Part shown: piece after piece, positions 1-11,835 of the stretch
Layout: each line of letters begins with the position of its first letter
How positions within the stretch are numbered: position 1 is the stretch's first letter
Source: Gammaproteobacteria bacterium
GTDB taxonomy: Bacteria; Pseudomonadota; Gammaproteobacteria; Pseudomonadales; Pseudohongiellaceae
Length of the DNA: 11,835 bases
Direction of reading: 5' to 3'
Assembly (NCBI GenBank): GCA_003451715.1
Contig: DMJN01000199.1
Coordinates: forward strand, 1 to 11,835
Made by a program: the position numbers and the translations under genes
Notes under the pieces: model-generated
Database searches by the model: none
Told to the model about the DNA's origin: nothing
What the model saw: the letters and a program-made list of their open reading frames with translations, nothing else

Positions 1-1106
1 GTGCGATCGAACACGTAGACAAATCCGTTTTTGTTTGCCTGCATTACGGCTTTGATGGTGCGACCATTCACTGTTATGTCACCAAGGATAGGTGGACTGG
101 AATTGTCGTACTCCCAAAGATCATGATGGATCATCTGGAAATGCCAGACTCTTTCACCGGTTTCAGCATCCAATGCCAACAGACTGTTGGCGAACAAGTT
201 ATCACCGGGCCGATGACCGCCGTAATAGGCAGAAGTTGGAGAGCCTAAAGGAACATAAACAATGCCCAGTTCATTGTCGGCAGATAAACAACACCAGGAT
301 CCTATGTCGCCGGACCATTCGGCAGATCCCTCTCCCCAGGTATCGTAACCAGTCTCTCCGGGTCGCGGTACTACATTGAATTCCCAGCTGAGTTCGCCGG
401 TTCTAACATCGAAGCCGCGAATATTTTCCGGTGCAGCCTCTTTTCGGTTGCCACCGTCTCCGGCACCATTTAGAAAACCGCCAATAACAGCGGTATTACC
501 AATCACCAAAGGAGAAGTGGTGAGCGTAAAGTTGTTTGCATTCTCAGCGCTGTAGGCAAGACTAACTCTTCCGGGTTCCTCGCGACTAAAATCAGGGAAG
601 GTTTCACCGGTTTGTGGGTTTAATGCGTAGAGATAACTACCTCGCACCGACATGAGTCGTTGATCGATTCCCTGTTCCCAGTGGGCAATGCCACGGGAAC
701 TGATACCAGCCGCTTCCAGCATAGTTTGTTGGTAGGGTGCTTGGGTCCAGAGTGTTTCGCCTGTGGCCGGATCGAATGCTTCTACTAGTCCGAAAACATT
801 CTGTGCGTATAGAACCCCATCTATAAATAGCGGAGTCGATCGAAGGTTTTTAATCCCACCTAATCCATCGTAATCATCCCGTAGCCAGGCGGCGGTAGCA
901 TCTTTGCGCCACTCTATACGGAGTTGGTCCACATTATTTGCATTAATCTGATCCAGTGGAGAGTAGCGATTGAAATTATTGTCGCCGCCAAAGTAACGCC
1001 AGGAACCATCTTCGATGGTCTGTGCTTCTGCGATACCGGCGATTAGACCAATCGAAACCAGGAGGATGCTTAGTTTTCTGATGAATTGAGTTCTTCTCTC
1101 TAGCAT
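1..1106 (-). CDS. PQQ-dependent quinoprotein dehydrogenase, N-terminal part (C-terminus outside window)
   Basis: Periplasmic PQQ (quinoprotein) alcohol/sugar-type dehydrogenase, which oxidises its substrate and passes electrons to the respiratory chain. I translated this minus-strand frame by hand: 368 codons are present and the frame is still open at the window edge. Residues 1-29 form a signal peptide ending AEA-QT. The start of the mature protein (DGSWRYFGGDNNFNRYSPL) is the typical family opening. Beta-propeller repeats of the ATGE.LW type follow near residues 114-120, 166-169 and 316-321. The family motif HHDLWEYD lies at 327-334 and KNGFVYVFDR at 359-368; its Asp and Lys correspond to the pair near PQQ in glucose dehydrogenase. 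A vicinal Cys pair sits at 272-273 (SWCCLSAD). The ATG at 1106 has AGAGG 8 nt upstream. It lies 83 nt downstream of the cupin gene and is probably co-transcribed with it. Substrate is unknown, and whether a C-terminal heme domain follows cannot be seen. Confidence 0.93.
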   Translation of the reverse strand, partial: MLERRTQFIRKLSILLVSIGLIAGIAEAQTIEDGSWRYFGGDNNFNRYSPLDQINANNVDQLRIEWRKDATAAWLRDDYDGLGGIKNLRSTPLFIDGVLYAQNVFGLVEAFDPATGETLWTQAPYQQTMLEAAGISSRGIAHWEQGIDQRLMSVRGSYLYALNPQTGETFPDFSREEPGRVSLAYSAENANNFTLTTSPLVIGNTAVIGGFLNGAGDGGNRKEAAPENIRGFDVRTGELSWEFNVVPRPGETGYDTWGEGSAEWSGDIGSWCCLSADNELGIVYVPLGSPTSAYYGGHRPGDNLFANSLLALDAETGERVWHFQMIHHDLWEYDNSSPPILGDITVNGRTIKAVMQANKNGFVYVFDR

Positions 1107-1189
1107 GGCTGCGACCTCTGTGCGTAAGCTCGGCAACAAGCTTGGAAATAGGGGATACTCGTGAAAGGGATCAACGTGTTGCAGCGAGA

Positions 1190-1639
1190 CTAGTCGTCAG
1201 ACGAATAGATTGCCCAAATCTTTTCATATCCATCCGTATCCCAGACTCCTGCCCATTCCTTAGGCATTGTTATCGCCTCGCCTGCGTGCACAGTCATCAC
1301 ACTACCGTCGCTGGAAGTCAGGGTGATACCCCCGCTCAGGAAATACATGAACTCATTGACACCGTAAGGCTGACTGATGTCGATGTGAGTTTTGCCTGAG
1401 CGATACATGCCACTGTGAAATTTCCCATCGCTACTCGCCATCGTAGTGACACTTTCAGTCTTATGGCCATCAGGATGTGTAGTCGCTGTCATATCAGCGC
1501 GCTTGAATATCATGCCTGCCGCATCATCTTTACTGATCTTGGCTGGTAGCACTGTTTTCGAATCCTGGCCAACTGCCACCACAGAGAAAAGAAGCCCAGC
1601 ACAAAGAAATGCAATCGTCAGCCTGAATTTGGAATACAT
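1190..1639 (-). CDS. Exported small cupin-domain protein (Cupin_3/DUF861-like)
   Basis: A 149-residue protein with a signal peptide (residues 1 to about 24, hydrophobic stretch LTIAFLCAGLLFSVVAVG) and one cupin beta-barrel over about residues 60-145. The core reads GVNEFMYFLSGGITLTSSDG, then AGEAITMPKEWAGVW and KIWAIY, which is the pattern of the Cupin_3 (ureidoglycine aminohydrolase-like) family. The His-rich metal site of classical cupins is not evident in the core; Glu96 is the clearest possible ligand, so it may bind a small molecule or act without metal. The ATG at 1639 has GAGGAA 6 nt upstream. It lies between the heme-copper fusion gene (168 nt upstream) and the PQQ dehydrogenase (83 nt downstream), which suggests a role in the same periplasmic process, but no function can be assigned. 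The family call is fairly sure; the role is unknown. Confidence 0.85.
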   Translation of the reverse strand: MYSKFRLTIAFLCAGLLFSVVAVGQDSKTVLPAKISKDDAAGMIFKRADMTATTHPDGHKTESVTTMASSDGKFHSGMYRSGKTHIDISQPYGVNEFMYFLSGGITLTSSDGSVMTVHAGEAITMPKEWAGVWDTDGYEKIWAIYSSDD

Positions 1640-1726
1640 GGCAAGTTCCTCATGAAGTAGAAGGAGATATCAGAATTCTTCAGAATATTCCTCATTGTAA
1701 TTTTTATGCTAAGAATTAACCTGATT

Positions 1727-1791
1727 AGACCGCGTTTTCCCAGTGATTGCCATTGACCTATGTCCCTGATTCGCCCCGGAAAACGTGGTCT
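1727..1791. repeat. 14+14 bp inverted repeat between the monooxygenase-like and cupin genes
   Basis: The arm at 1727-1740 (agaccgcgttttcc) and the arm at 1778-1791 (ggaaaacgtggtct) are inverted copies matching at 13 of 14 positions, separated by 37 nt. Read as plus-strand RNA the one difference is a G-U pair; as minus-strand RNA it is an A-C mismatch. It lies 17 nt past the stop of the minus-strand gene ending at 1808. No T-run follows the arm in the minus direction, so it is not a textbook Rho-independent terminator. It could be a processing or attenuation structure, or the remains of a small mobile element. Confidence 0.55.
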
Positions 1792-1807
1792 GTTTTCTAT
1801 GGTGCTA

Positions 1808-3190
1808 CTAAGGTCCGCACAGTTGGCTCAAATTTTCCGTATCCCACCCCCCATACTGTCCTCGCTCAAATTGTTCTCGACGTCGAGCCTGGGCGAGTAT
1901 GGATTCGGGAATTGCATCTCCGACTACGATTCCCTGTGGCTCTGCCCTGGTGAAGAAATAGCGGGCGTTCATCATTTCATCCACCGACCGGGCTCCCCAA
2001 CGAACTTCGGCCGTAGGATCGGGATTCGCTGGGTTGTCTGCGGAGTTGTCAAACCACCAGGTCACATGATATTTCGAGCCGGCTGGCAGGAATCTCGGTT
2101 CCTGGTACTCGTAGTGGAATTGCCAATTAAAGTCGTAGTTGGGTACCCAGAGCAGGGTTTCCCGCTCGTCTACACCTGGGAGTTGCAGTTCAACCTTGAC
2201 GGCTTTTCCACGATAGTGAGAATGAGGGGCAATCGCAAGCAGGAGAATGTCTTCCTCGATCGTGTGCTCGTGAGTCGTCATGTAGTTGGGATCACCTGGT
2301 GGAATCACAATGTCCCTGTTCATTGGAATCGTGTTTTGAACTACGTAATCGATTACGTCACCCGGTTCATAGAAGAGGAAACCACCAACGGTGTTATCTT
2401 CCACAGCTGTGCCAGGACCTGATTGCTTGGCATAGTGCATCCCGATGGTGACGAATGGATCCGCGGGAAGAAGGAAGCCCCATCCTTCTGGATAGACTTG
2501 AGGGCGTCGACCAGGAACGGCTACTCCCAGGTAGTTGGAAACTACATGGTGCATTGTGCTACCGGTTAGGATCTCAGTTGCCTGAATCCATTGATGCTTG
2601 CTCAGATCACCTTCGGTACGCTGCATGAGTATCGTAGGTTGCCAATCTGTTACTTCTTCGCATACTTCCACCGGCTCGCGAAAGGCGACTCTCGCATCGG
2701 GCACACCCATCCACCACATGGATCCGTCCGGTGCCTGTACAGGCTCATTCGGCGGCGCGCTCAGCGCGAGCTCGTCAGCATCGAGTTGCTCGGCAGGATC
2801 TCCCTGAAGCGCACCTGCCTCAATCCAGTCGATCAGAAGCTGCTTGTCCTCATCAGAGATATAACGCTCGTTCTTGAAGGTTCCCTGGTGCTGTCGATGC
2901 GCGCCCCAAGGAGGCATGGATCCGTCTTTCAGTCGCAGGGATATCACCGGTGCCCAAATTTTTGCATCTTCGTAAGAGAGGATCGAAAAAGGCGCTGTTA
3001 TCCCTCCCAGATTTGGAACATCGGACCGGTGGCATTCGGCGCAGTTACGACTGAATGCGTCCTGAGCTTCCCCGTAGAAGGTTGGCGCTTCAGTCGACTG
3101 CGCTAAGGCTCCTGCCGAAGCACTGAGCAGTGCTGCCAACGGGAAGAATATTTTGGTTATCAAACAAAGGTTTTTGTATTGGTAGTTCAT
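1808..3190 (-). CDS. Exported cytochrome c - PHM/DBH-like copper monooxygenase fusion protein (copy 1)
   Basis: A 460-residue periplasmic protein with signal peptide 1-30 (cleavage near ALA-Q). Residues about 38-125 form a mono-heme c domain: CAECH at 50-54 binds heme, and Met92 in SMPPW is the likely distal ligand. Residues about 150-415 carry, in order, His214-His215 (TMHHVV), His252 (GMHY), His323 and His325 (HSHYRG) and Met406 (DEMMNA). This is the ligand order of the two copper sites in peptidylglycine monooxygenase and dopamine beta-hydroxylase (H,H,H for one site; H-x-H,M for the other). The stretch WFDNSADNPANPDP before DEM is shared with the gene at 8924-10294. The ATG at 3190 has a strong AAGGGGAG just upstream. 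The cupin and PQQ dehydrogenase genes follow on the same strand. Copper hydroxylation with the heme as electron donor is inferred; the substrate is unknown. It could instead be a non-catalytic copper/heme protein. Confidence 0.82.
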   Translation of the reverse strand: MNYQYKNLCLITKIFFPLAALLSASAGALAQSTEAPTFYGEAQDAFSRNCAECHRSDVPNLGGITAPFSILSYEDAKIWAPVISLRLKDGSMPPWGAHRQHQGTFKNERYISDEDKQLLIDWIEAGALQGDPAEQLDADELALSAPPNEPVQAPDGSMWWMGVPDARVAFREPVEVCEEVTDWQPTILMQRTEGDLSKHQWIQATEILTGSTMHHVVSNYLGVAVPGRRPQVYPEGWGFLLPADPFVTIGMHYAKQSGPGTAVEDNTVGGFLFYEPGDVIDYVVQNTIPMNRDIVIPPGDPNYMTTHEHTIEEDILLLAIAPHSHYRGKAVKVELQLPGVDERETLLWVPNYDFNWQFHYEYQEPRFLPAGSKYHVTWWFDNSADNPANPDPTAEVRWGARSVDEMMNARYFFTRAEPQGIVVGDAIPESILAQARRREQFERGQYGGWDTENLSQLCGP

Positions 3191-3544
3191 GATGCTCCCC
3201 TTCTAGTTTGTTGATCTTCTTATCCGATTATTGTTGCATCATTCATATCTGTTTCTCGACTCAAATGGGTTTACCTGCTGCCTAATCTTACACTAACCCT
3301 GCTTAGTGTAAACGAGCGCTTTTCAGGCCCCTAGATCCAGGTGATTCAGGGTATGGATATTGGAAGTCTCGGGTCTAGATCCTTATTGTATTCTGAGACT
3401 TCAATCAGCTTTGGATAATTGAATTTCAGCTCTGCAAAGGTTAGTTTTCGACCAAGAACGGGCACTTGGAATTTGCTTTGACACATCCTTATTTACGTAG
3501 ATTGTAATGTTCTGAAGGCATCCGGCTTGATGCTCAATACACGC
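3191..3544. other. Gene-free interval upstream of the monooxygenase-like gene
   Basis: 354 nt without a convincing gene on either strand. It contains the ribosome binding site and the promoter/operator of the gene starting at 3190. It also holds a loose inverted repeat (gaagtctc at 3363-3370 with gagacttc at 3395-3402) and two copies of ctagatcc (3331-3338 and 3375-3382). No U-rich terminator hairpin was seen after the esterase stop at 3545. Confidence 0.5.
3285..3312 (-). promoter_or_regulatory. Promoter with a palindromic operator between -35 and -10
   Basis: On the minus strand, TTTACA (3307-3312) and TAAGAT (3285-3290) are separated by 16 nt, a plausible sigma-70 promoter about 95 nt upstream of the start at 3190. 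A perfect inverted repeat, TTACACTAA at 3288-3296 and TTAGTGTAA at 3303-3311 with a 6-nt spacer, fills the promoter core and overlaps both boxes. This placement is typical of a repressor site, for example of a TetR-type dimer. No regulator gene for it is in the window. Confidence 0.6.
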
Positions 3545-4552
3545 TCAATTCTCACTGCGACGTTGACCGAATGGTCGTTGACCAAGCGCCCGTTGCATGA
3601 CCTCGTATTGCACCGCCATGATCCGCCCGATTGACTGAATCCAATAGTCTGCATTGTGCTCTCCCGGCATCTGCATGTAGTCGAAAGGGATATCTCTGTT
3701 AATCAAAATACCTGCTAATTCTCTGGCCCCAGCGATGAGCCGATCTTCCGTGCCACAATCCAAATAGATGTGGGGAAGTTGATCGGCCGATAGTTTGTCA
3801 ATCAGAGTAAAAGGATCGTAGGCGTCGGCATCCTCGGCAGTGACGAACTCTTGACCTAGTGGCGAGCGTTCGACCTGGCTACTGAAACCGTCAATTCCAA
3901 TGAGCGGATTCACACGCTGGCGTCGGGCTTCTCTTGCAGCTCGTTCAGCCTGTGTTAGATCAGGGAGCTCTCTCGGTGGAGCTTCTCCGCGCATAACGCG
4001 GGCGATCTGACGCGCGTGTTCCAGGGCGCCGCTAGTACTTCCAATGGAGATGAACAGCTCGGGATTACGCAGCCCCAGCGTGATCGAACCGTATCCTCCC
4101 ATAGACAGGCCAGCGATGGCTCTGCCCTCACGTCGAGGGATAGTCCGATAGTTCCAGTCCACGTGATTAACCACGTCGCTGACGATATGGTCTTCCCAAT
4201 TGTTTTTTTGTCCACCTTCGTTTGCTGCCCAATTGACATACCAGGAGTTACCCCCGTCGGGCATCACCACAATGAGGTCGTCGTAAAGGCCGGCATAGTA
4301 CGGAGTACCGTTTCGGAGCCCCCAAGCCGTGTAGTTCTGCGTCAATCCGTGTAGTAAATAAAGCACAGGATAGCGTTCAGATGAGGTTTCATAGTCACGC
4401 GGGAGAACAATGTTGTACTTCATAGTTCGCTCTACGGCGGGACTAAGGAATTCGACAGTTCGAAGCTCCAGGTGTTGGGCTGATGCGGGAATCGCAACAA
4501 ACGTGAAGAGAATAGCTACTGCTGTTGTATAAGCGCTTGCTCGAAAATTCAT
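3545..4552 (-). CDS. Exported alpha/beta-hydrolase esterase (esterase D / FrmB type)
   Basis: A 335-residue serine hydrolase of the putative esterase family (relatives include esterase D, Fes-type and feruloyl esterases and the antigen 85 fold), exported by a signal peptide of about 25 residues (cleavage near ASA-Q). The core is complete: YPVLYLLHGLTQNYTAW at 61-77 gives the oxyanion-hole region, the nucleophile Ser150 lies in GLSMGGYGS, Asp270 in CGTEDRLI and His299 in PGEHNADYW, forming the catalytic triad. A charged Arg/Ala/Glu-rich insert at about 185-215 may be a lid. The ATG at 4552 has AAGGAG 7 nt upstream. Both flanking gaps are large (354 nt and 191 nt), so it may be its own transcription unit; TTGACC followed after 17 nt by TCATAT on the minus strand is a weak possible promoter. 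Substrate unknown; a small-acyl or aryl ester is likely. Confidence 0.9.
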   Translation of the reverse strand: MNFRASAYTTAVAILFTFVAIPASAQHLELRTVEFLSPAVERTMKYNIVLPRDYETSSERYPVLYLLHGLTQNYTAWGLRNGTPYYAGLYDDLIVVMPDGGNSWYVNWAANEGGQKNNWEDHIVSDVVNHVDWNYRTIPRREGRAIAGLSMGGYGSITLGLRNPELFISIGSTSGALEHARQIARVMRGEAPPRELPDLTQAERAAREARRQRVNPLIGIDGFSSQVERSPLGQEFVTAEDADAYDPFTLIDKLSADQLPHIYLDCGTEDRLIAGARELAGILINRDIPFDYMQMPGEHNADYWIQSIGRIMAVQYEVMQRALGQRPFGQRRSEN

Positions 4553-4672
4553 TGTTGAACTCCTTGTTCTAAGTTTTGGATATGAGAGTATGTTTGTTGT
4601 TTGGTCAAATTGATTTGATTAGTCGATTGCTTTCTGGTCTAGCCTCAGCAATTCGGGCCAATTCGTTGGGCT

Positions 4673-4686
4673 CAAGTATCCGCTTT
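4673..4686. repeat. 14-bp dispersed tag, copy 1
   Basis: caagtatccgcttt occurs here and again, identically, at 8550-8563; in both places it is followed by a TGCCA or GGCCA-like sequence. Here it starts an imperfect hairpin (ccgctttctgccaggggcgg). Neither copy is within a gene, which suggests a degraded dispersed element rather than coding homology. Confidence 0.4.
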
Positions 4687-4743
4687 CTGCCAGGGGCGGT
4701 CGTTCAGTGTCAAAGCAACGCGAGTAATTTGAGTCTATTGTCC

Positions 4744-6216
4744 TTATGGATTTGTTCGATCCGAATGATTTGATGTCTTTTTGTCAGTATCTGATTTTAG
4801 TTCTTGGTAAAAATCTTCTTTGCAGGAGGGACAAATCCCATGAGAAAAAGTGGTATTGGGCCGTTTGCTGATGTAGCTCTCGATCTGCTCCCAATAGCCT
4901 TTATCATCACGAATATTTTTACAACTCGCACAAATCGGCAGTAATCCTCCTAAAGTATCAATTTCGACGAGAGCTTGCTCAAGGTCTCTATTTCTCGTTA
5001 TCAACTCTTCAGTTCTTTCTTGTACTTCACCTTCCAGCTCGCTCTGGTATGCCAGCATATCTTGTTCCCTGAGGTATCGGTGCCTGACTATTGTGAAGAA
5101 AACTAGCATCATAAGGGAAATCGTGGCACTTACCAGCCAGATGATTACAGTGCGAGTTCTGTAATAGGGTGCCAAGACTTCGTCAGAATCGATCTCTGTA
5201 GTCAGTCCAATGCCAAGCTCATCACTCCATAACCAAACACCGAATACCTCAACACCCCGGTAGTCTCGATAGCCTTCGACGTTGCTACCTGCATTTCCCG
5301 AAGTAGCACTTGCAGCCATAACGGTAAGCGGAAGCTCGTCTTGAGCTAATGGAGATTGATAATTTTCAATCAGGTTTCCGCCGGGATCTGCTATTCTAAT
5401 CGCCAAAATTCCACGCCCGCCTGGGGTGATTCTACCGATAGATTCAAGCTGGTCGTCAAAGCGACTTTCAGTGATTAATAGCCCTGTGCGATCGAATGCG
5501 TATGTTTCCCCTGACTCACCAATCCTGCCCAGCTGAGTTATCCGAGTGAAATCCTCTCCTGGATCTAAACGCACTGCCAGGGCAGCAATAATTACATCTT
5601 CAGTGTCTCGTATGGGGGATATAGCAAACATCGTTGCTTCGCCATCAATATTACGAACCCTATTGTTATCTATTTCCACATCGGTTCGAATTGGTGGCAC
5701 TATTAGGGAGCGACCTTCGAATACTTCACCGAACAAGTCCGGTCTCTGAATCGCGATAATGTTTCTACTACCCATGTTCTCTTCACGCATCGAAGCAATA
5801 CTGATTGCATCTGGGGATATTACAAAGATACCTTGAATCAAGTTTCTCTCAAATTGAAATTGATACAGCGATCGAATCGTTCCAAGTGCTGAATTCGCTA
5901 GATCAAGCGCTTGATTGCCACGTGAATCCAGCAATTCTATAGTTGACTGAACCAGTTGTGGATTTTGTGCCGCCTCAGAGACATACGTGATCAACTGGTC
6001 TTGCCACAACTCAAGAGCTGCTTCCGTTGTATACAGGACAGTTTCGAGTGCCTCGCCATTAGATTGCCGAGTTTGGCTCTCTATACGATTGAGCGCATAG
6101 GCGACGAGGCTCAGCACGATAATGACAAATCCAACGACTAAGCTCAAAAAAAGCAAATTCGATGAGAGTAGTCGAGTTTTAGCGGGAAGCCGATGTGTTG
6201 AAAGAGTGGAGTTCAT
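4744..6216 (-). CDS. Two-TM Cache-type sensor with a coiled coil and a four-Cys C-terminal tail
   Basis: Counting from the ATG at 6216, this 490-residue protein has TM1 at about 21-42 and a periplasmic Cache-type sensor region at about 45-350, which includes GRIGESGETYAFDRTGLLI, the usual signature of double-Cache ligand domains. TM2 follows at about 356-377, then an acidic coiled coil at about 382-422. The end is a tail, ICASCKNIRDDKGYW...SHGICPSCKEDFY (about 428-472), with two CxxC pairs (429/432 and 462/465). This tail occurs at the C-terminus of many bacterial PAS and response-regulator proteins; its role is not established. No histidine kinase, GGDEF, EAL or methyl-accepting domain is present. 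The frame stays open to a TTG at 6345, adding 43 residues, but these do not look like a natural N-terminus and would bury the TM segment, so I prefer 6216, although its ribosome binding site is weak. It lies downstream of the SIR2 gene. Confidence 0.85.
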   Translation of the reverse strand: MNSTLSTHRLPAKTRLLSSNLLFLSLVVGFVIIVLSLVAYALNRIESQTRQSNGEALETVLYTTEAALELWQDQLITYVSEAAQNPQLVQSTIELLDSRGNQALDLANSALGTIRSLYQFQFERNLIQGIFVISPDAISIASMREENMGSRNIIAIQRPDLFGEVFEGRSLIVPPIRTDVEIDNNRVRNIDGEATMFAISPIRDTEDVIIAALAVRLDPGEDFTRITQLGRIGESGETYAFDRTGLLITESRFDDQLESIGRITPGGRGILAIRIADPGGNLIENYQSPLAQDELPLTVMAASATSGNAGSNVEGYRDYRGVEVFGVWLWSDELGIGLTTEIDSDEVLAPYYRTRTVIIWLVSATISLMMLVFFTIVRHRYLREQDMLAYQSELEGEVQERTEELITRNRDLEQALVEIDTLGGLLPICASCKNIRDDKGYWEQIESYISKRPNTTFSHGICPSCKEDFYQELKSDTDKKTSNHSDRTNP

Positions 6217-6411
6217 GAGCGGGGTTCTTGCTCTTACTGCTGGCGATACAGCATTCGACCCGTCATTTGAACAAAGAACCTGGCAAAAGTATTGATATAG
6301 CTCATAAGTCGCCATTTTTTGGGGGTGAATTTGAGCTGTTTCCAAGGAAACGCCACCATCCGCTTGGGGTTGAATGCGGCCACTTTGAGGATTCTTCAGA
6401 ATAGGTCAATA

Positions 6412-7173
6412 TTACGAGTGTTTGAGCTCTGAAACTATCTGCGAGAGTACGGGCCCAATTTCACCGTGAATCACCATATCGGCAATACCGTCCATCTCTG
6501 TTGGCTCGCGATTCAAGATCACCAACTTTGCCCCATGCTGTTTTGCCTGTAAGGGAAAACTCGCAGCCGGATAGACAACCAATGATGAGACAATGGCAAT
6601 AAACAGATCGCAATCAAGTGTCGCTTGTTGGGCTAACAACATTTCACGCTCGGGCATGGGCTGCCCAAAAGAAATAGTCGCCGTCTTAATCATGCCGCCA
6701 CAGTGCTCACAGTCAGGAACCTCACCCTTGTTCTGAAATGCCACTTTCAAGGGAGCGAACTCATACGCATGACCACAAGCCAGGCACTTGGCATAAGTCG
6801 CATTGCCGTGTAGCTCTATAACCTTGTCATCCGGCACGCCAGAATTTTGATGCAGGTTATCCACATTCTGGGTAATCACATGACTGACTTTTCCATTATC
6901 GACCAACTTCGCTACTGCGATATGCCCGTTATTTGGCAGGGCCTTGGCCATGCCATCCATGCCTTCAAATTTCCTGCGCCAGCTCTCTTCTCGCATTTTA
7001 GGATCGGCAACAAAATCCTGGAACTGAATCGGTTTCATTTTGGACCAAACACCACCTGGCGAACGAAAATCCGGTATGCCGCTTTCAGTGGAAATGCCGG
7101 CCCCGGTGAAAACTACCACCCGGGAAGATTGAACAATTAGCTCGGCGAGGTTGGTATTTGAGGAGATAGTCAA
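6412..7173 (-). CDS. SIR2-family NAD-dependent protein deacylase (sirtuin)
   Basis: A 253-residue cytoplasmic sirtuin that removes acyl groups from lysines, using NAD+ and releasing nicotinamide and O-acyl-ADP-ribose. Visible motifs are GAGISTESGIPDFRSPGGVW (24-43, NAD binding), TQNVDNLHQNSGVP (101-114), the catalytic His122 in ELHGN, and a complete zinc site Cys130/Cys133 and Cys155/Cys158. The usual GSS/GTS loop after the last Rossmann strand reads VSS here: Val195 (codon at 6589-6591) replaces the conserved Gly. The start is TTG at 7173, with AAGG 7 nt upstream; an in-frame TAA lies just four codons upstream and no ATG occurs before residue 46, so no other start fits. It has no Tyr-x-x-Arg desuccinylase signature that I can see. 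It follows the methyltransferase after 127 nt. The family call is firm; activity is in some doubt because of Val195. Confidence 0.93.
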   Translation of the reverse strand: MTISSNTNLAELIVQSSRVVVFTGAGISTESGIPDFRSPGGVWSKMKPIQFQDFVADPKMREESWRRKFEGMDGMAKALPNNGHIAVAKLVDNGKVSHVITQNVDNLHQNSGVPDDKVIELHGNATYAKCLACGHAYEFAPLKVAFQNKGEVPDCEHCGGMIKTATISFGQPMPEREMLLAQQATLDCDLFIAIVSSLVVYPAASFPLQAKQHGAKLVILNREPTEMDGIADMVIHGEIGPVLSQIVSELKHS

Positions 7174-7215
7174 AGAGGGAGCCTTATCGTCGCAGTGTAT
7201 AGGGGTAGTTACCTA

Positions 7216-7249
7216 TGTTAAAAGTAGACACTCGGTGTTTACATTAACA
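7216..7249. repeat. Interrupted palindrome upstream of the SIR2 gene
   Basis: The left arm at 7216-7231 (tgttaaaagtagacac) and the right arm at 7235-7249 (gtgtttacattaaca) are inverted copies with a 3-nt loop, one single-base bulge and two mismatches. It lies 43 nt upstream of the SIR2 start and 52 nt past the methyltransferase stop. No U-run follows in the minus direction, so a regulator binding site is at least as likely as a terminator. Confidence 0.5.
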
Positions 7250-7300
7250 TTAAATTGAGCGGCGAGTGTAAGCTCGTCCGCTGCAAGGATTTGTTCTGCC

Positions 7301-7909
7301 TCACGGTCTCGCTAGCAAAACTGTGCGGTCTCCACAGCTCTTGTCTTGAAGAGTCATCTCAATATTGCCGAGGCCACGGGAACGAAGGATATGTTCGTAT
7401 TCCTGAGGTTCCAGGCTCGAATGATAAACATCTTCACCCTCGACAACTCCGAGGACTTCTCCGGATTCATGACCAACCGTCAGCAGAAGCGCGCCCCGAG
7501 AATCGAGGTGTGTCAGGAAACGTTGAAGAACCTGGCGCTGCTCATCCGGACTAAGATGGAAGAAACTATCCCAGGCAATTATTGCGGCGAACCGCTCGCC
7601 CAAGCTCAGCTCCCGCATATCCATAACGATCCACGATTGATCTGGGAATCTAGTCTTACAGATTTCAATCATCTTTGGCGATGAGTCTACTCCGGTTAAA
7701 GAGAAACCCCTCTTTAAGACGTACCTGGATATTGGCTCTCCTGCTCCGCACCCGACATCAAGTACCGAACTCCCAGGAGCCATGGAGTTGAGAAGTTTGT
7801 CGAGCCAGGGTTTCTCAATTAACGAACGCGGTCGTCGTTCGTCCCAACCGTGCGCGTTTCGTTCGTACACGGCTGTGGTTTCCCGGTGAATATCGCTAAA
7901 TTGAGACAT
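7301..7909 (-). CDS. Class I SAM-dependent methyltransferase
   Basis: A cytoplasmic Rossmann-fold methyltransferase, 202 residues from the ATG at 7909. Motif I is VLDVGCGAG at 49-57. The acidic residue that holds the SAM ribose is Asp75 in LTGVDSSPKMI, followed by DMREL at about 97-101 and AAIIAWDSFFHL at about 108-119. The N-terminus MSQFSDIHRETTAVYERNAHGWDE matches the usual entry helix of this family. The frame is open a further 13 codons to a TTG at 7948, with an ATG at 7939, but those residues do not resemble the family; no start has a clear ribosome binding site. It lies 63 nt after the small membrane-anchored gene and 127 nt before SIR2. The target is unknown; small molecule, thiol or protein are all open. 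Confidence 0.88.
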   Translation of the reverse strand: MSQFSDIHRETTAVYERNAHGWDERRPRSLIEKPWLDKLLNSMAPGSSVLDVGCGAGEPISRYVLKRGFSLTGVDSSPKMIEICKTRFPDQSWIVMDMRELSLGERFAAIIAWDSFFHLSPDEQRQVLQRFLTHLDSRGALLLTVGHESGEVLGVVEGEDVYHSSLEPQEYEHILRSRGLGNIEMTLQDKSCGDRTVLLARP

Positions 7910-7972
7910 GGTAGTCAGAACTGGAGTGAGGCATAACATGTACAACAACCATTTTGCTTGTTAACACACTAT

Positions 7973-8473
7973 TTATCCGGATGGTTCTACCAGAAAGATG
8001 TGGACGTTTTCGATACCGGGGCTGGTCCATTCTGGATATTTATCGACAAAGGCTTGGAGGACCGGCGCCCTGATACTTTCGTTGTCGACGTGGCTAAGGG
8101 TCTGATCAAACAAACGATCCCCGATCTTCAAGCGCACGCGTGGATCTCTCAAAACATTCTGGTTCCAGCTTCTCATGTCTGGAAAGTTACCGCCCCCGTA
8201 ATAGGCAGAGAAAAGGTAAAAGTCGCCGGCGTATTCGGCGCAGTATACGGTGACTGAGTGTGGAATCCCGTACCGCGTATTGGTCTGAACGAATATTTCC
8301 CCGAACTGGTTGGTAAAACTCCAATCCGAGACGGGTTCGGTAACCAGTTCTCCGGTGACCCATAATCCAGGACGCAAGTCGCTGGGCTCGAAACCGAATA
8401 TCCTGAGTGATGCGAGCGTGACTACCAACACCACCAGGATTCCCATTGCTGCTATCTTTAAATATTTCTTCAT
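7973..8473 (-). CDS. Membrane-anchored small protein, possibly of split beta-barrel (nitroreductase/PNPOx-like) fold
   Basis: A 166-residue protein with an N-terminal hydrophobic anchor or uncleaved signal (KIAAMGILVVLVVTLASL, about 6-23) and a soluble domain facing the periplasm. The pattern LRPGLWVTGELV...TRYGIPHSVTVYCAEYAGDFYLFSAY...RSWNQNVLRDPRVRLKIGDRLFDQTL (about 33-126) resembles split-barrel flavin or F420-type proteins, where a W-x-x-N ... PxVxLKIG segment follows the beta hairpin. That resemblance is by eye and weak. The ATG at 8473 has AGGA 7 nt upstream. The methyltransferase follows after 63 nt on the same strand, so the two may share a transcript. Upstream lies the gene-free mobile-element scar. 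I do not recognise a specific function. Confidence 0.75.
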   Translation of the reverse strand: MKKYLKIAAMGILVVLVVTLASLRIFGFEPSDLRPGLWVTGELVTEPVSDWSFTNQFGEIFVQTNTRYGIPHSVTVYCAEYAGDFYLFSAYYGGGNFPDMRSWNQNVLRDPRVRLKIGDRLFDQTLSHVDNESIRAPVLQAFVDKYPEWTSPGIENVHIFLVEPSG

Positions 8474-8523
8474 GGCATTGTCCTGATCCCGAATCAGAAA
8501 ATGTAAATTAGGGGTTTTCGAAT

Positions 8524-8547
8524 AAAAATAGATCTGTCCCCTTTTTT
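8524..8547. mobile_element. Short element end, gatctgtcccctttttt type
   Basis: Reads, on the minus strand, an A-run then GGGGACAGATC and TATTTTT. Sequences of this form are, to my recollection, common as dispersed tags beside REP-associated or IS200-like transposases in environmental proteobacteria. No transposase of that type is here, so this would be a solo remnant. It stands directly before the 14-bp repeated tag. Confidence 0.35.
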
Positions 8548-8549
8548 CA

Positions 8550-8563
8550 CAAGTATCCGCTTT
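8550..8563. repeat. 14-bp dispersed tag, copy 2
   Basis: Identical to 4673-4686 (caagtatccgcttt) and followed by ttggcca. It sits between the element end at 8524-8547 and the IS-like inverted repeat at 8571-8598, which strengthens the view that it belongs to mobile DNA. Confidence 0.4.
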
Positions 8564-8570
8564 TGGCCAA

Positions 8571-8672
8571 GTGGTCTGGCCCCGGTTTTACGGACCACCT
8601 CAATATGCACAATAATGTGCTTGGAGCTGGGTTATGGCAAGAAGAAAAAGGTACAGTACCGAGTTCAAATAA
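8571..8672 (+). pseudogene. Remnant of the left end and transposase OrfA start of an IS3-type element
   Basis: From the ATG at 8634 the plus strand reads MARRKRYSTEFK and then TAA. This is the usual beginning of IS3-family OrfA (a helix-turn-helix protein starting M.(R/K)(R/K)..Y(S/T).EFK), cut off after 12 codons. Past the stop the same frame continues QALRRAAQ before a second stop, as a decayed OrfA would. About 60 bp upstream, gtggtctggcccc...gaccacc forms an inverted repeat (gtggtc 8571-8576, gaccac 8593-8598) of the kind found at such element ends. No catalytic OrfB (DDE) region is present, and the right end was not found. It is a scar of an old insertion, deleted or heavily mutated. Confidence 0.5.
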
Positions 8673-8858
8673 CAAGCATTGCGAAGGGCAGCGCAGTAAG
8701 CAGTCTTCGAATCCTTATTATTGTTCTACACCTCATAGCAGGGGGGTGATGTCCAGTCAAGGCTTTCCAAATATTATGAAACCTCGCAATCAGCTGCCTT
8801 TGTGGACCTGTAAGAAATACGAAAAACAGTGAAATGATGGGTCTCTATCCCACAAAAT

Positions 8859-8886
8859 AGGCCGACTGGATTGCTCCAGCCGGCCT
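8859..8886 (-). terminator. Rho-independent terminator of the second heme-copper fusion gene
   Basis: A 12-bp stem (aggccgactgga at 8859-8870 with tccagccggcct at 8875-8886) closes a 4-nt loop. The single irregular position is a G-U pair in minus-strand RNA, so the hairpin is better formed in that direction. It starts 37 nt past the stop at 8924 and is followed by a short U-rich run (UAUUUUG). Confidence 0.8.
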
Positions 8887-8923
8887 TCCCGCAGGGACGG
8901 GTCTTGCAATTCCAAGGTAAGGC

Positions 8924-10294
8924 TTAGTCGTTGCCGGCAACCGAACGTTCTTGTTTTGCTTTGCGCTCAGCCACGAGGCGATCATAACCTTCGTCATCGA
9001 GGTGAGTCACCGCGATCCAGGCATGGGACATCTCGTCACCGGTGCGGCTGCCATCGTAAACCCACTGATCGGGGTCGGGGTTGTTGGGGTTATCTGCAGT
9101 GTTGTCGTACCACTGCTTGATTACCAGTACGGCACCAGTCGGCAGCAGGGGAGCTGCTTCCGGGTTGTAGATGTGGCTGTGGTGCCAGGTGGCGCTCCAA
9201 TTGGAGATCTGGCTGATCTGTTCGGTGCGACCCGTTTCCGGATAGAACACTTCCAGTGACGCGGCGTTCATGCGCAGGTGGCCGTGGGGCTGGAAGCTGT
9301 CGATACGAACGGGGTGATCGAAAGAGTGGAAGCCCTGGGTCATGCCATGACTGTGAGGAGGAATGATCAGGTGGCCATTCTCATAACCATCGCGCATGCC
9401 ATACAGGCTCAGGTTCTGACGATAGGGTTGCTCAACTTCTTCGTAGTCATCCTCGTGGAACCAGATGCCCAGTTCGACAACGTTGTTCAGTACGGCCTCG
9501 CCTTGGGCTGTAGCGCCCACACCACCGGGGTACATGTGGATATCCCAGAAGACGCGCGAATCGGCTGGTATCTGACGACACACGCCTTCCGGCATTAGCT
9601 CGCCCCATTTGCCCATCGCATATTCGGTCAGTTGGCTGAAGCGGTCATAGTCGCCGGTGTCGGCATTAAGTACTTGAACGGAAGGGTTGGCGTGGTGCAC
9701 GACTGCGCGGGCATCGCCGCGCGGCTTCACCTGCATGGCCTTGATGCACTTACCTTCGGTGATACCCGTAGGTACGTAGTGCTTGTGCCACATGTCATTG
9801 CCGCCGGCCGGAATATCCACTGGCGTGGACGCGATGATCAGGCTCGGCTCACCGAACAGGGGCTCGAAATTCCAGGCATCGGTATCGAGCAGTTCTGGTG
9901 CTGGGGGCACGATGTCTGCCGGTCCCAGGGGCGAACCCTGATTGACCCAGGCAACGATCGTATCGATTTCTTCTTGCTCCATGCGCCAGTCTCCTTCCAG
10001 ATCCTGGATACCGATATGCTGGTCGTAGGCGTAGGGAGGCATCTCCCGATTAGCGACTCGTAACTGGATCAGTGGTGCCCAGGGACGGATCTGGTCATAG
10101 GTTTCGAACTGCATCGGACCGATACCACCTTCTCGATGGCAGGTCACGCAGTTCTCATTCATGATACTTGCAACGTGGGTGTTGTAAGTAATTTGGTCAT
10201 CCTGGGCCTGTGCGCTGGAGAATCCTAGCGTCAGCAAAGCCACAGATGCTCCTGCGAGCAATCTTCGCATCGTTCTCATTCTTCTCATCCTCAT
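8924..10294 (-). CDS. Exported cytochrome c - PHM/DBH-like copper monooxygenase fusion protein (copy 2)
   Basis: A 456-residue periplasmic protein, a distant paralogue of the gene at 1808-3190. The signal peptide covers about 9-30 (cleavage near AQA-Q). The heme c domain, about 33-125, has CVTCH at 49-53 and Met85 in EMPPY as the likely distal ligand. The C-terminal part carries His200-His201 (VVHHANPS), His253 (DIHMYPGG), His337 and His339 (PHGHLRM) and Met422 (GDEMSHA), the same copper-ligand order as in PHM/DBH. WYDNTADNPNNPDP at about 395-408 matches the other copy. Unlike copy 1 it has extra His clusters (PHSHG at 313-317, HHSH at 371-374) and a possible disulfide, Cys183-Cys239. Four in-frame ATGs open the frame (10294, 10288, 10279, 10270); the third has AGGA about 8 nt upstream, so the true start may be 10279. 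Strong terminators lie both before and after it, so it is probably transcribed alone. The reaction is inferred. Confidence 0.82.
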   Translation of the reverse strand: MRMRRMRTMRRLLAGASVALLTLGFSSAQAQDDQITYNTHVASIMNENCVTCHREGGIGPMQFETYDQIRPWAPLIQLRVANREMPPYAYDQHIGIQDLEGDWRMEQEEIDTIVAWVNQGSPLGPADIVPPAPELLDTDAWNFEPLFGEPSLIIASTPVDIPAGGNDMWHKHYVPTGITEGKCIKAMQVKPRGDARAVVHHANPSVQVLNADTGDYDRFSQLTEYAMGKWGELMPEGVCRQIPADSRVFWDIHMYPGGVGATAQGEAVLNNVVELGIWFHEDDYEEVEQPYRQNLSLYGMRDGYENGHLIIPPHSHGMTQGFHSFDHPVRIDSFQPHGHLRMNAASLEVFYPETGRTEQISQISNWSATWHHSHIYNPEAAPLLPTGAVLVIKQWYDNTADNPNNPDPDQWVYDGSRTGDEMSHAWIAVTHLDDEGYDRLVAERKAKQERSVAGND

Positions 10295-10394
10295 AGCAGG
10301 TTTAAGTACAAAGTTTCAGGGAATAACTAGTACTGCGGCTGAGTCTACTTCGTTTCCGGGTAGGGAAAAAGTAAAAATCGCAGAAATATTGATC

Positions 10395-10400
10395 TGTCAA
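10395..10400 (-). promoter_or_regulatory. Possible -35 box for the second heme-copper fusion gene
   Basis: A perfect TTGACA on the minus strand, about 100 nt upstream of the start and just past the terminator of the preceding gene. The best -10 candidate 16-18 nt further on is only a T-run, so the promoter is tentative. Confidence 0.3.
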
Positions 10401-10408
10401 TCACATAA

Positions 10409-10445
10409 AAAAACGGCCGATCTGGATGCCCGACCGGCCGTTTTT
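10409..10445. terminator. Strong, symmetrical Rho-independent terminator
   Basis: aaaaacggccg (10409-10419) and cggccgttttt (10435-10445) are perfect inverted copies around a 15-nt loop. It lies 14 nt past the stop of the minus-strand gene at 10459. The A-run and T-run on either side would allow termination in both directions. It separates the two right-hand exported genes. Confidence 0.88.
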
Positions 10446-10458
10446 CGGGATTCGCAAA

Positions 10459-11397
10459 CTACCTTACCGTGACCCGCTGGTAGATGTTCGACCAGCAGCA
10501 CTGGTCGCCATTGGAGCTGTCCGGGGCATCGTGGACATCGACCTTGGTGGAGATGATGTAGTCACCCGGTGCGGAGAATTTTGCATAGACCTGTCCGGTA
10601 CCGGAAGGACCGGTAATCTCCAGGCTGCTCACCGAAGGAGTGCGGAAAAATCTGGAACGGGGGTCGTCTTCTGCATAGGGATTTTCAGGTATTGCCGTGT
10701 CCTCATGGCGCATGAACTCGACTTTACCCGGGCCCTGGTATTTAGAGAACTCGACACCCAATGCAATCGGTTCACCGAAGCGTGGATCATCAGGGTCACG
10801 CACGGCGGGGTCGCTTACATTGACAGACAGCAACACCTGCTCGCCGGCACTCACAGCGCCGCCGGGGTAATCACCGATCTGCGCGTACAGCCCGGCAGCC
10901 TGACTGCCATTGTCTCCGATTCCCACCAGGGGCTGTAAGGCACCCTGTGGGCGCGGCAGAATGAAGTCCAGCTCGTAGGCGGCTGAGCCACGTCGTCCTG
11001 GAACCTTCAGCGTTTCCGCATCGCCGGTTTTAATATGCCACCAAACGTCATTACCTTCTTCGGCGGGGGGAACTGTTACGGCGAAGGCACCGGTAGTTCG
11101 ACCGGGAGGAAAATGTGTGGGTTGCATGCCCTGGTATTTCCCGGGTTCGATGTAGTTATTTTCACCCAGAGGGATTTCAACCGGGTCATCATTTCGGTTG
11201 ATGATGCCGAATGAAAAACTGGTGGTGCCGTCTGCATTCGCAATCCAGCCTTCCAGTACCGGGATGACGGGAAGTCCTTCTGGTGGAGCCAGACTCAGGA
11301 AGCGGGCAGTTTCAGTCGACTGCGCCTGCACTCCAAAGGCCAGCGTGGACAGTAGTCCGAACAGTATGGCAGAGAGAATTTTGTTTTTGATTTGCAT
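10459..11397 (-). CDS. Exported beta-rich protein with a C-terminal Cys-Cys pair, function unknown
   Basis: A 312-residue secreted protein with signal peptide 1-25 (cleavage near VQA-Q). The mature part is rich in beta-strand and Pro/Gly: SLAPPEGLPVIPVLEGW at 35-51, SFGIINRNDDPVEIPLG at 62-78, then QPTHFPPGR and FAVTVP, resembling an immunoglobulin-like or adhesin-like sandwich. A charged stretch at about 195-250 and a final strand segment, APGDYIISTKVDV, follow. The only cysteines in the mature protein are the adjacent pair at 300-301 (GDQCCWSN). The ATG at 11397 has GGAG 9 nt upstream. It is followed by a strong terminator and so is a single-gene unit, next to the heme-copper fusion gene. 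I do not recognise a named family. It may be an accessory or copper/heme partner of that enzyme, but this is a guess from position. Confidence 0.85.
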   Translation of the reverse strand: MQIKNKILSAILFGLLSTLAFGVQAQSTETARFLSLAPPEGLPVIPVLEGWIANADGTTSFSFGIINRNDDPVEIPLGENNYIEPGKYQGMQPTHFPPGRTTGAFAVTVPPAEEGNDVWWHIKTGDAETLKVPGRRGSAAYELDFILPRPQGALQPLVGIGDNGSQAAGLYAQIGDYPGGAVSAGEQVLLSVNVSDPAVRDPDDPRFGEPIALGVEFSKYQGPGKVEFMRHEDTAIPENPYAEDDPRSRFFRTPSVSSLEITGPSGTGQVYAKFSAPGDYIISTKVDVHDAPDSSNGDQCCWSNIYQRVTVR

Positions 11398-11485
11398 TGC
11401 GTGTATCTCCGATTATAAGCAGGGTTTAAATAAGCGTTTTTCCAATAGGCAAAGCTGTCCTGTCCTGTATCTGAAGAGGATAAAT

Positions 11486-11514
11486 TTTATAAGCAGTTGA
11501 ATCTTCTCAAACAA
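11486..11514 (-). promoter_or_regulatory. Promoter of the exported beta-rich protein gene
   Basis: On the minus strand, TTGTTT (11509-11514) and TATAAA (11486-11491) are 17 nt apart. The -10 box is near consensus and the -35 matches in its first three bases. It lies about 90 nt upstream of the ATG at 11397. Confidence 0.5.
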
Positions 11515-11591
11515 CGACGCTAGGATAAACGCCATTTTCGCCCGCGTCCAGTTGTGAAGTGTGCAAAATGGTGACTATATGTCATTGTTGG

Positions 11592-11609
11592 GTTACAAGA
11601 TGTTACAAG
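11592..11609 (+). promoter_or_regulatory. Two GTTACAAG direct repeats, 10-bp period
   Basis: gttacaag occurs at 11592-11599 and 11602-11609, one helical turn apart, about 60-80 nt upstream of the plus-strand gene at 11671. Direct repeats with this period are the usual target form of OmpR/PhoB-type response regulators. No clear -10/-35 pair was found around them. Confidence 0.4.
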
Positions 11610-11670
11610 GATATTCGACAACAGCCCTACTACGATCCGACTGCGTGCCGCTTCAACAGAGGTTTTTTAA

Positions 11671-11835
11671 ATGACCAATGAGTCCAGTTACATCAGTGCC
11701 CAGGCAAGACTGCACCACGCCTACCTGCTTGGATTGCAACTAATGGTCGCCAGCAATCGCAGCGCGGCCGAGGTGGGTGACTGGATGTTCAGCCTGTTCC
11801 GCCGCCAGCATCTGGAGAAGTTTCTTGCCAGTTTT
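11671..11835 (+). CDS. Hypothetical protein, N-terminal 55 residues (continues past window)
   Basis: The only convincing plus-strand gene, open to the end of the window. It begins MTNESSYISAQARLHHAYLL and continues with GLQLMVASNR, AEVGDWMFSLFRRQH and LEKFLASF. The segment looks helical and amphipathic, with no signal peptide or TM helix, so the protein is probably cytoplasmic. AGAGG lies 8 nt before the ATG at 11671. It is divergent from the exported beta-rich gene across a 273-nt interval. I cannot assign a family from this fragment. Confidence 0.75.
   Translation, partial: MTNESSYISAQARLHHAYLLGLQLMVASNRSAAEVGDWMFSLFRRQHLEKFLASF

Follow-up and report, generated by a model that had tools for sequence, protein, structure and literature searches.

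The gene PHM1 lies on an 11,835-nucleotide stretch of DNA, here called the window (GenBank assembly GCA_003451715.1, contig DMJN01000199.1, positions 1 to 11,835), from a gammaproteobacterium of the Pseudohongiellaceae. We propose, with a probability of roughly 0.7, that its product is an exported periplasmic copper monooxygenase with the fold of peptidylglycine alpha-hydroxylating monooxygenase (PHM) and dopamine beta-hydroxylase (DBH), in which a tethered cytochrome c with His/Met heme ligands takes the place of ascorbate. With both coppers loaded, electrons would arrive singly at heme c, pass to the CuH copper (H214, H215, H252) and then to the CuM copper (H323, H325, M406), where O2 would be activated and a C-H bond hydroxylated. 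The gene and its presumed ligands are as follows.

1808..3190, minus strand: PHM1, heme c and dicopper monooxygenase fusion, 460 amino acids, ATG start (open reading frame [ORF], alignments, predicted fold)
3029..3043, minus strand: CAECH heme c attachment site, residues 50-54 (coordinates derived from the ORF)
2915..2917, minus strand: M92, presumed distal heme ligand (alignments)
2546..2551, minus strand: H214-H215, presumed CuH ligands (alignment including DBH)
2435..2437, minus strand: H252, presumed CuH ligand (alignment including DBH)
2216..2224, minus strand: H323-x-H325, presumed CuM ligands (alignment including DBH)
1973..1975, minus strand: M406, presumed CuM ligand (alignment including DBH)

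Ligand residues and predicted fold of PHM1

A first-pass annotation of this DNA had named the CAECH heme motif, M92 and the six copper ligands, and every one of these positions is exact in the ORF. The sequence AGGGGAG stands immediately 5' of the ATG, and the hydrophobic N-terminus, ending in ALAQ, resembles a Sec signal peptide. The heme domain spans residues ~35-130, and the only cysteines beyond the heme site and signal peptide are C177 and C458. At the motif level, PHM1 carries the class I cytochrome c signature, CxxCH plus a distal Met. The Pfam cytochrome c family PF13442 gives it 17.7 bits, under the 27-bit cut-off, and a match of this type is found at E ≤ 0.01 in 77 of 82 relatives. 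Searched with profile A2 (below), residues ~35-82 match best, among solved structures, to the heme region of hydrazine synthase alpha (E 1.6e-6). A Pfam scan at E ≤ 1 gave no DOMON match, and the fold-comparison rows barely cover the N-terminal part, where the heme c domain sits.

The predicted model shows a tandem beta-sandwich PHM/DBH core at residues ~153-420 (Foldseek and VIA), as the first-pass annotation's proposal of two PHM-type domains demanded. In a profile alignment with DBH, H214, H215 and H252 (His-His plus His) are in register with the CuH site and H323, H325 and M406 (His-x-His plus Met) with the CuM site, so at the sequence level the earlier assignment of all six copper ligands agrees with DBH. 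When solved structures were searched with the single sequence, only noise was returned. Close relatives dominate profile A1, which found cytochromes and cytochrome-bearing enzymes, with no PHM or DBH; the more diverse profile A2 recovered both.

The ten ligands are strongly conserved. In a set of PHM1 plus 119 relatives (120 of 564 relatives were listed, with the window's own copy left out), C50, C53, H54, M92, H214, H215, H323, H325 and M406 are kept in 120/120 and H252 in 119/120. All ten are invariant across the 82 members of alignment A1, which includes PHM2, the window's second copy, at 26% identity. The source genome has all ten in 13/13 complete ORFs, and its fragments retain every ligand that they span; the Leu shown at M92 in fragment L018 falls outside the covered part, and one weak match with two CxxCH motifs (L024_4765) was left out of the family count. 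These sets bear out the conservation on which the first-pass annotation had staked its case. We also assembled ORFs of at least 420 amino acids from source-genome stretches, named loci (80 of the 168 confirmed loci) and same-genus clusters, giving 153 rows, 152 of them distinct (PHM1 is present twice). All ten ligands occur in 131/153; of the other 22, six are truncated, gapped or masked, and 16 form one group with a changed HxH, described below. Given the invariance in A1, the fold comparison and the DBH profile alignment, a reading of these residues as chance motifs was dropped.

Outside this family, the PHM/DBH core is known from the animal enzymes of noradrenaline and peptide-amide synthesis. 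Identity in the structural matches is 12-18%. Rat PHM (PDB 1phm, 1opm, 1sdw) is without the fused heme c domain. DBH bears an N-terminal DOMON domain, as in the human enzyme (PDB 4zel); PHM1 has a c-type heme domain ahead of the core. An Arg two residues ahead of HxH binds the peptide carboxylate in PHM; it is not present in the PHM1 family, where position 321 is Gly or Ala in 81/82 rows and Gln in one. Within the PHM/DBH fold, we class the PHM1 family as a separate, new subfamily, distinct from PHM or DBH proper. The fold and copper sites are already known from PHM and DBH. A literature search of titles and abstract openings, with few subscription journals or preprints, returned no description of a heme c-PHM fusion, nor of the family expansion, dehydrogenase neighbours or CuM-less paralogue reported below. 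The fusion to a heme domain suggests a different electron supply for PHM/DBH-type enzymes.

Neighbouring dehydrogenases and proposed electron supply

The first-pass annotation pictured a self-contained hydroxylase. This goes too far, as the heme itself needs an outside reductant, plausibly the neighbouring pyrroloquinoline quinone (PQQ) or GMC dehydrogenases. Periplasmic dehydrogenases encoded alongside are probably the reductant of the heme; for PHM1 the donor would be a heme-less PQQ dehydrogenase, and in some PHM2-type clusters a GMC flavoprotein whose small subunit resembles that of gluconate dehydrogenase. The relevant genes of the window are listed here.

1190..1639, minus strand: cupin (Cupin_3), first gene downstream of PHM1, with an apparent signal peptide (Pfam, neighbour survey)
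3..1139, minus strand: PQQ-dependent dehydrogenase, truncated where the contig stops, its remaining part free of CxxCH
8924..10294, minus strand: PHM2, second heme c and dicopper paralogue, with 26% identity and the full set of ten ligands
10459..11397, minus strand: c23, 312-amino-acid protein, apparent signal peptide, predicted mostly beta, regular neighbour of PHM2-type genes

Among 13 PHM1 orthologues (the window and L042-L053, at least 70% identity), a PQQ dehydrogenase adjoins PHM1 or lies one gene off in nine. The dehydrogenase lies downstream, beyond the cupin, in the window, L042, L043 and L047, and directly upstream of PHM1 in L048, L049, L050, L052 and L053. It is absent from these positions in L044, L045 (a short contig) and L046, and L051 stops soon after PHM1. 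By sequence, the L042 enzyme is closest among solved structures to quinohemoprotein alcohol dehydrogenases (PDB 1yiq, 1kb0, 1kv9). These, as their name states, have their own heme c, whereas the 38 PQQ-dehydrogenase ORFs surveyed as neighbours, including truncated ones, show no CxxCH (0/38).

The PHM2 gene was followed in 22 stretches (L147-L168) picked for PHM2-type matches. Gene c23 is present in 19/22, adjoined by a heme-PHM gene every time, and one to four heme-PHM copies follow in tandem, mostly two. The c23 protein is unmatched in Pfam and NCBIfam, and its fold search gave no clear match (query-normalised TM score ≤ 0.26 among the 50 matches listed); a QCCW motif near its C-terminus is invariant in 54 sequences. 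Gluconate_2-dh3 and GMC flavoprotein genes occur in 6/22 clusters, and a 4.5 Mb genome of the same genus, G012, has only four Gluconate_2-dh3 genes, one of them in a PHM2/c23 cluster. Within the fetched stretches of the six GMC clusters there is no further CxxCH ORF above 120 amino acids, and therefore the heme-PHM protein may stand in for the cytochrome of the GMC dehydrogenase.

Each turnover of an alcohol dehydrogenase yields two electrons, the need of one hydroxylation. More speculatively, a dehydrogenase acting on the hydroxylated product would form a redox-closed pair with the monooxygenase. Such working would be analogous to that of fungal cellobiose dehydrogenase and lytic polysaccharide monooxygenase, in which the dehydrogenase supplies a copper monooxygenase through a cytochrome with a b-type heme on the dehydrogenase; the copper enzyme there is unrelated, and in PHM1 the c-type heme is on the monooxygenase chain. 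Substrates likely vary among the paralogues. The residues following the CuM Met differ by paralogue (DEMMNA, DEMFFG, DEMSHA, DEMAHN), which is compatible with differing substrates. The gene neighbours vary by paralogue group and point to no one substrate.

The same neighbourhoods could be taken to mean that electrons flow the other way, with the copper sites oxidising the substrate and the heme passing its electrons on to the respiratory chain; PHM1 would then be a copper dehydrogenase and not a monooxygenase. Periplasmic-type dehydrogenases do adjoin the gene, and His/Met cytochromes commonly act as electron exits. However, HxH plus Met is the O2 site in PHM and DBH, and this CuM set is complete in the 131/153 rows noted above. 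To our knowledge there is no dehydrogenase of the PHM/DBH fold, and the neighbouring PQQ and GMC enzymes could themselves oxidise alcohols. We consider reversed flow unlikely.

Two other genes were noted. A NosR-like flavin mononucleotide/4Fe-4S membrane protein, so labelled from motifs and general knowledge, is encoded on the opposite strand a few genes off in 36/80 named loci (50%-identity group, flanks L054-L121) and may be another electron donor. The window also encodes a dCache-type sensor protein (4744-6345) with a CASCKNIRDDKGYW element close to its C-terminus.

Paralogues, the half-site group and spread of the family

Sixteen redoxin-like-heme-PHM proteins are encoded divergently from the 312-amino-acid gene c23. 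Their heme ligands, CuH histidines (H-H and H) and CuM Met are retained, with HxH replaced by R-x-N in 14, K-x-N in one and R-x-S in one. The surrounding stretch is well aligned, e.g., RARMNYRGKK versus PHSHYRGKA. The copies are at L148:4480-6270 and L149:9463-11286 and in L151-L158, L160, L162, L163, L165, L167 and L168. As this half-site group was selected by its HxH change, the unbiased count is that of divergent copies beside c23: there are 17 in the 22 clusters, of which the 16 that can be judged all lack HxH (16/16), and the 17th (L147) runs off the fetched stretch. Judged by its aligned residues, the paralogue encoded divergently beside c23 is a heme plus CuH form that lacks the His pair of CuM. 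Within the genus, 58/61 genomes have a match at E ≤ 1e-100 to a half-site member; these matches include HxH paralogues and are not a half-site count. No half-site motif was found among the source-genome ORFs fetched, from an assembly that is 69% complete. By eye, the window contig is missing the half-site gene at its usual spot, c23 being followed by a gene start that in G012 lies beyond it.

11398-11835, plus strand: start of a gene that in G012 (L148) sits past the divergent half-site paralogue

The source genome gives 28 matches to the family, made up of 13 complete ORFs, one gene split across two ORFs, and contig-end fragments. Five fragments span the C-terminus, giving at least 19 genes provided that the contigs are non-redundant. 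In the marine source genus, 25/25 genomes (including this one) have 12-31 matches each; matches exceed genes, the 31 in G012 corresponding to 23 genes. Other families of the same order gave 0/13 genomes. A sample of 248 other genomes from the phylum gave one match, confined to the heme region (profile positions 25-141), with at most six candidates scored per genome. By record title, the named loci are mostly Gammaproteobacteria or Pseudomonadales, with some Pseudohongiella, OM182 and SAR86, one Betaproteobacteria, and ten from Gemmatimonadota (one titled Longimicrobiales). All 16 genomes of this kind tested have 5-41 matches; they were chosen for having the gene and overlap the genus set (G298 and G012 share coordinates). 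A plasmid search gave no match.

Seven long source-genome paralogues (L011, L012, L013, L015, L016, L017, L025) have an extra N-terminal part with few or no cysteines, which Pfam labels AhpC/TSA-like in five of them. We considered whether this part is a SCO-like copper chaperone and rejected the idea: of 12 long paralogues examined, 3 are without Cys there, and 0/12 have CxxC or CxxxC past the presumed signal. Of the three Cys-free parts, L016 and L025 have no Pfam AhpC/TSA call, and their likeness is by eye only.

Such an N-terminal part indicates that the family may hold passenger domains, and the heme domain could be another, serving localisation, partner docking or O2/redox sensing while the copper core, like that of PHM and DBH, takes electrons from a diffusible reductant; domain fusion is in itself no proof of electron transfer. 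Against this, CxxCH and the distal Met are present in 13/13 complete source-genome copies, and the heme ligands are kept in 16/16 half-site copies, in which the catalytic copper appears to have been lost. We regard a passenger heme as quite improbable.

Weight and meaning of the monooxygenase reading

Several results weigh against PHM1 as a heme-supplied copper monooxygenase. The first-pass annotation had pointed to two Pfam families. One, Cu2_monoox_C (PF03712), gives a score of 11.4 bits, below its curated cut-off of 23; the other, Cu2_monooxygen (PF01082, the N-terminal domain), leaves PHM1 unmatched at E ≤ 1. Because PHM1 is sub-threshold in Pfam, its kinship could be established only by comparing profiles and folds. 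Source-genome paralogue L012 reaches 24.7 bits with PF03712, a match precomputed for 7/120 listed relatives, and PF01082 matches only L011 (E 0.29) among ten source-genome paralogues. The PHM scaffold is disulfide-rich, and PHM-type disulfides are absent from PHM1. The gene is also not general, being found at ≥72% identity in only 13/137 genomes of the family Pseudohongiellaceae (up to 12 candidates scored each), and GMC is absent from 16/22 PHM2-type clusters, some of them ended by contig limits. Lastly, G012 (four contigs, each taken to end at its last gene; 23 heme-PHM genes) has 52 PQQ-dehydrogenase-like genes (66 matches minus 14 short second pieces). They are so numerous that their nearness to heme-PHM genes is weakly above chance, at 5 versus 1.46 expected within 1.5 kb (p 0.029), 6 versus 2.19 within 3 kb (p 0.048) and 7 versus 3.0 within 5 kb (p 0.061).

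Other copper chemistry on the PHM fold (peroxide-driven hydroxylation, oxidase, peroxidase or nitrogen-oxide reduction) would suit the variable residues after the CuM Met and the hydrazine synthase match of the heme domain, but both ligand sets fit the monooxygenase arrangement in the DBH profile alignment, and we give it the least credence of the alternatives.

A broader extension of the monooxygenase reading is tentative, and we think it rather less likely than the reading itself. It holds that PHM1 belongs to an apparently undescribed family of heme-wired dicopper hydroxylases running on periplasmic dehydrogenases and not on ascorbate, in which a neighbouring PQQ or flavin adenine dinucleotide enzyme would oxidise an alcohol, possibly the hydroxylated product, and return the two electrons that a further hydroxylation requires, as a redox-closed pair. 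On this view a natural heme and CuH-only member would occur in many genomes of the genus and act as an electron relay or partner without catalytic copper.

Current thinking on electron sharing between two distant coppers owes much to PHM and DBH, whose donor is ascorbate or a substitute for it. A built-in heme would offer a spectroscopic handle on each electron, and in the natural paralogue that lacks the CuM His pair the transfer from heme to CuH could be seen in isolation. Sources that name the relatives use "mono/diheme cytochrome c", "cytochrome c" or "hypothetical protein". Because the family is large and yet carries such names, a reservoir of periplasmic oxygenases may be escaping notice.
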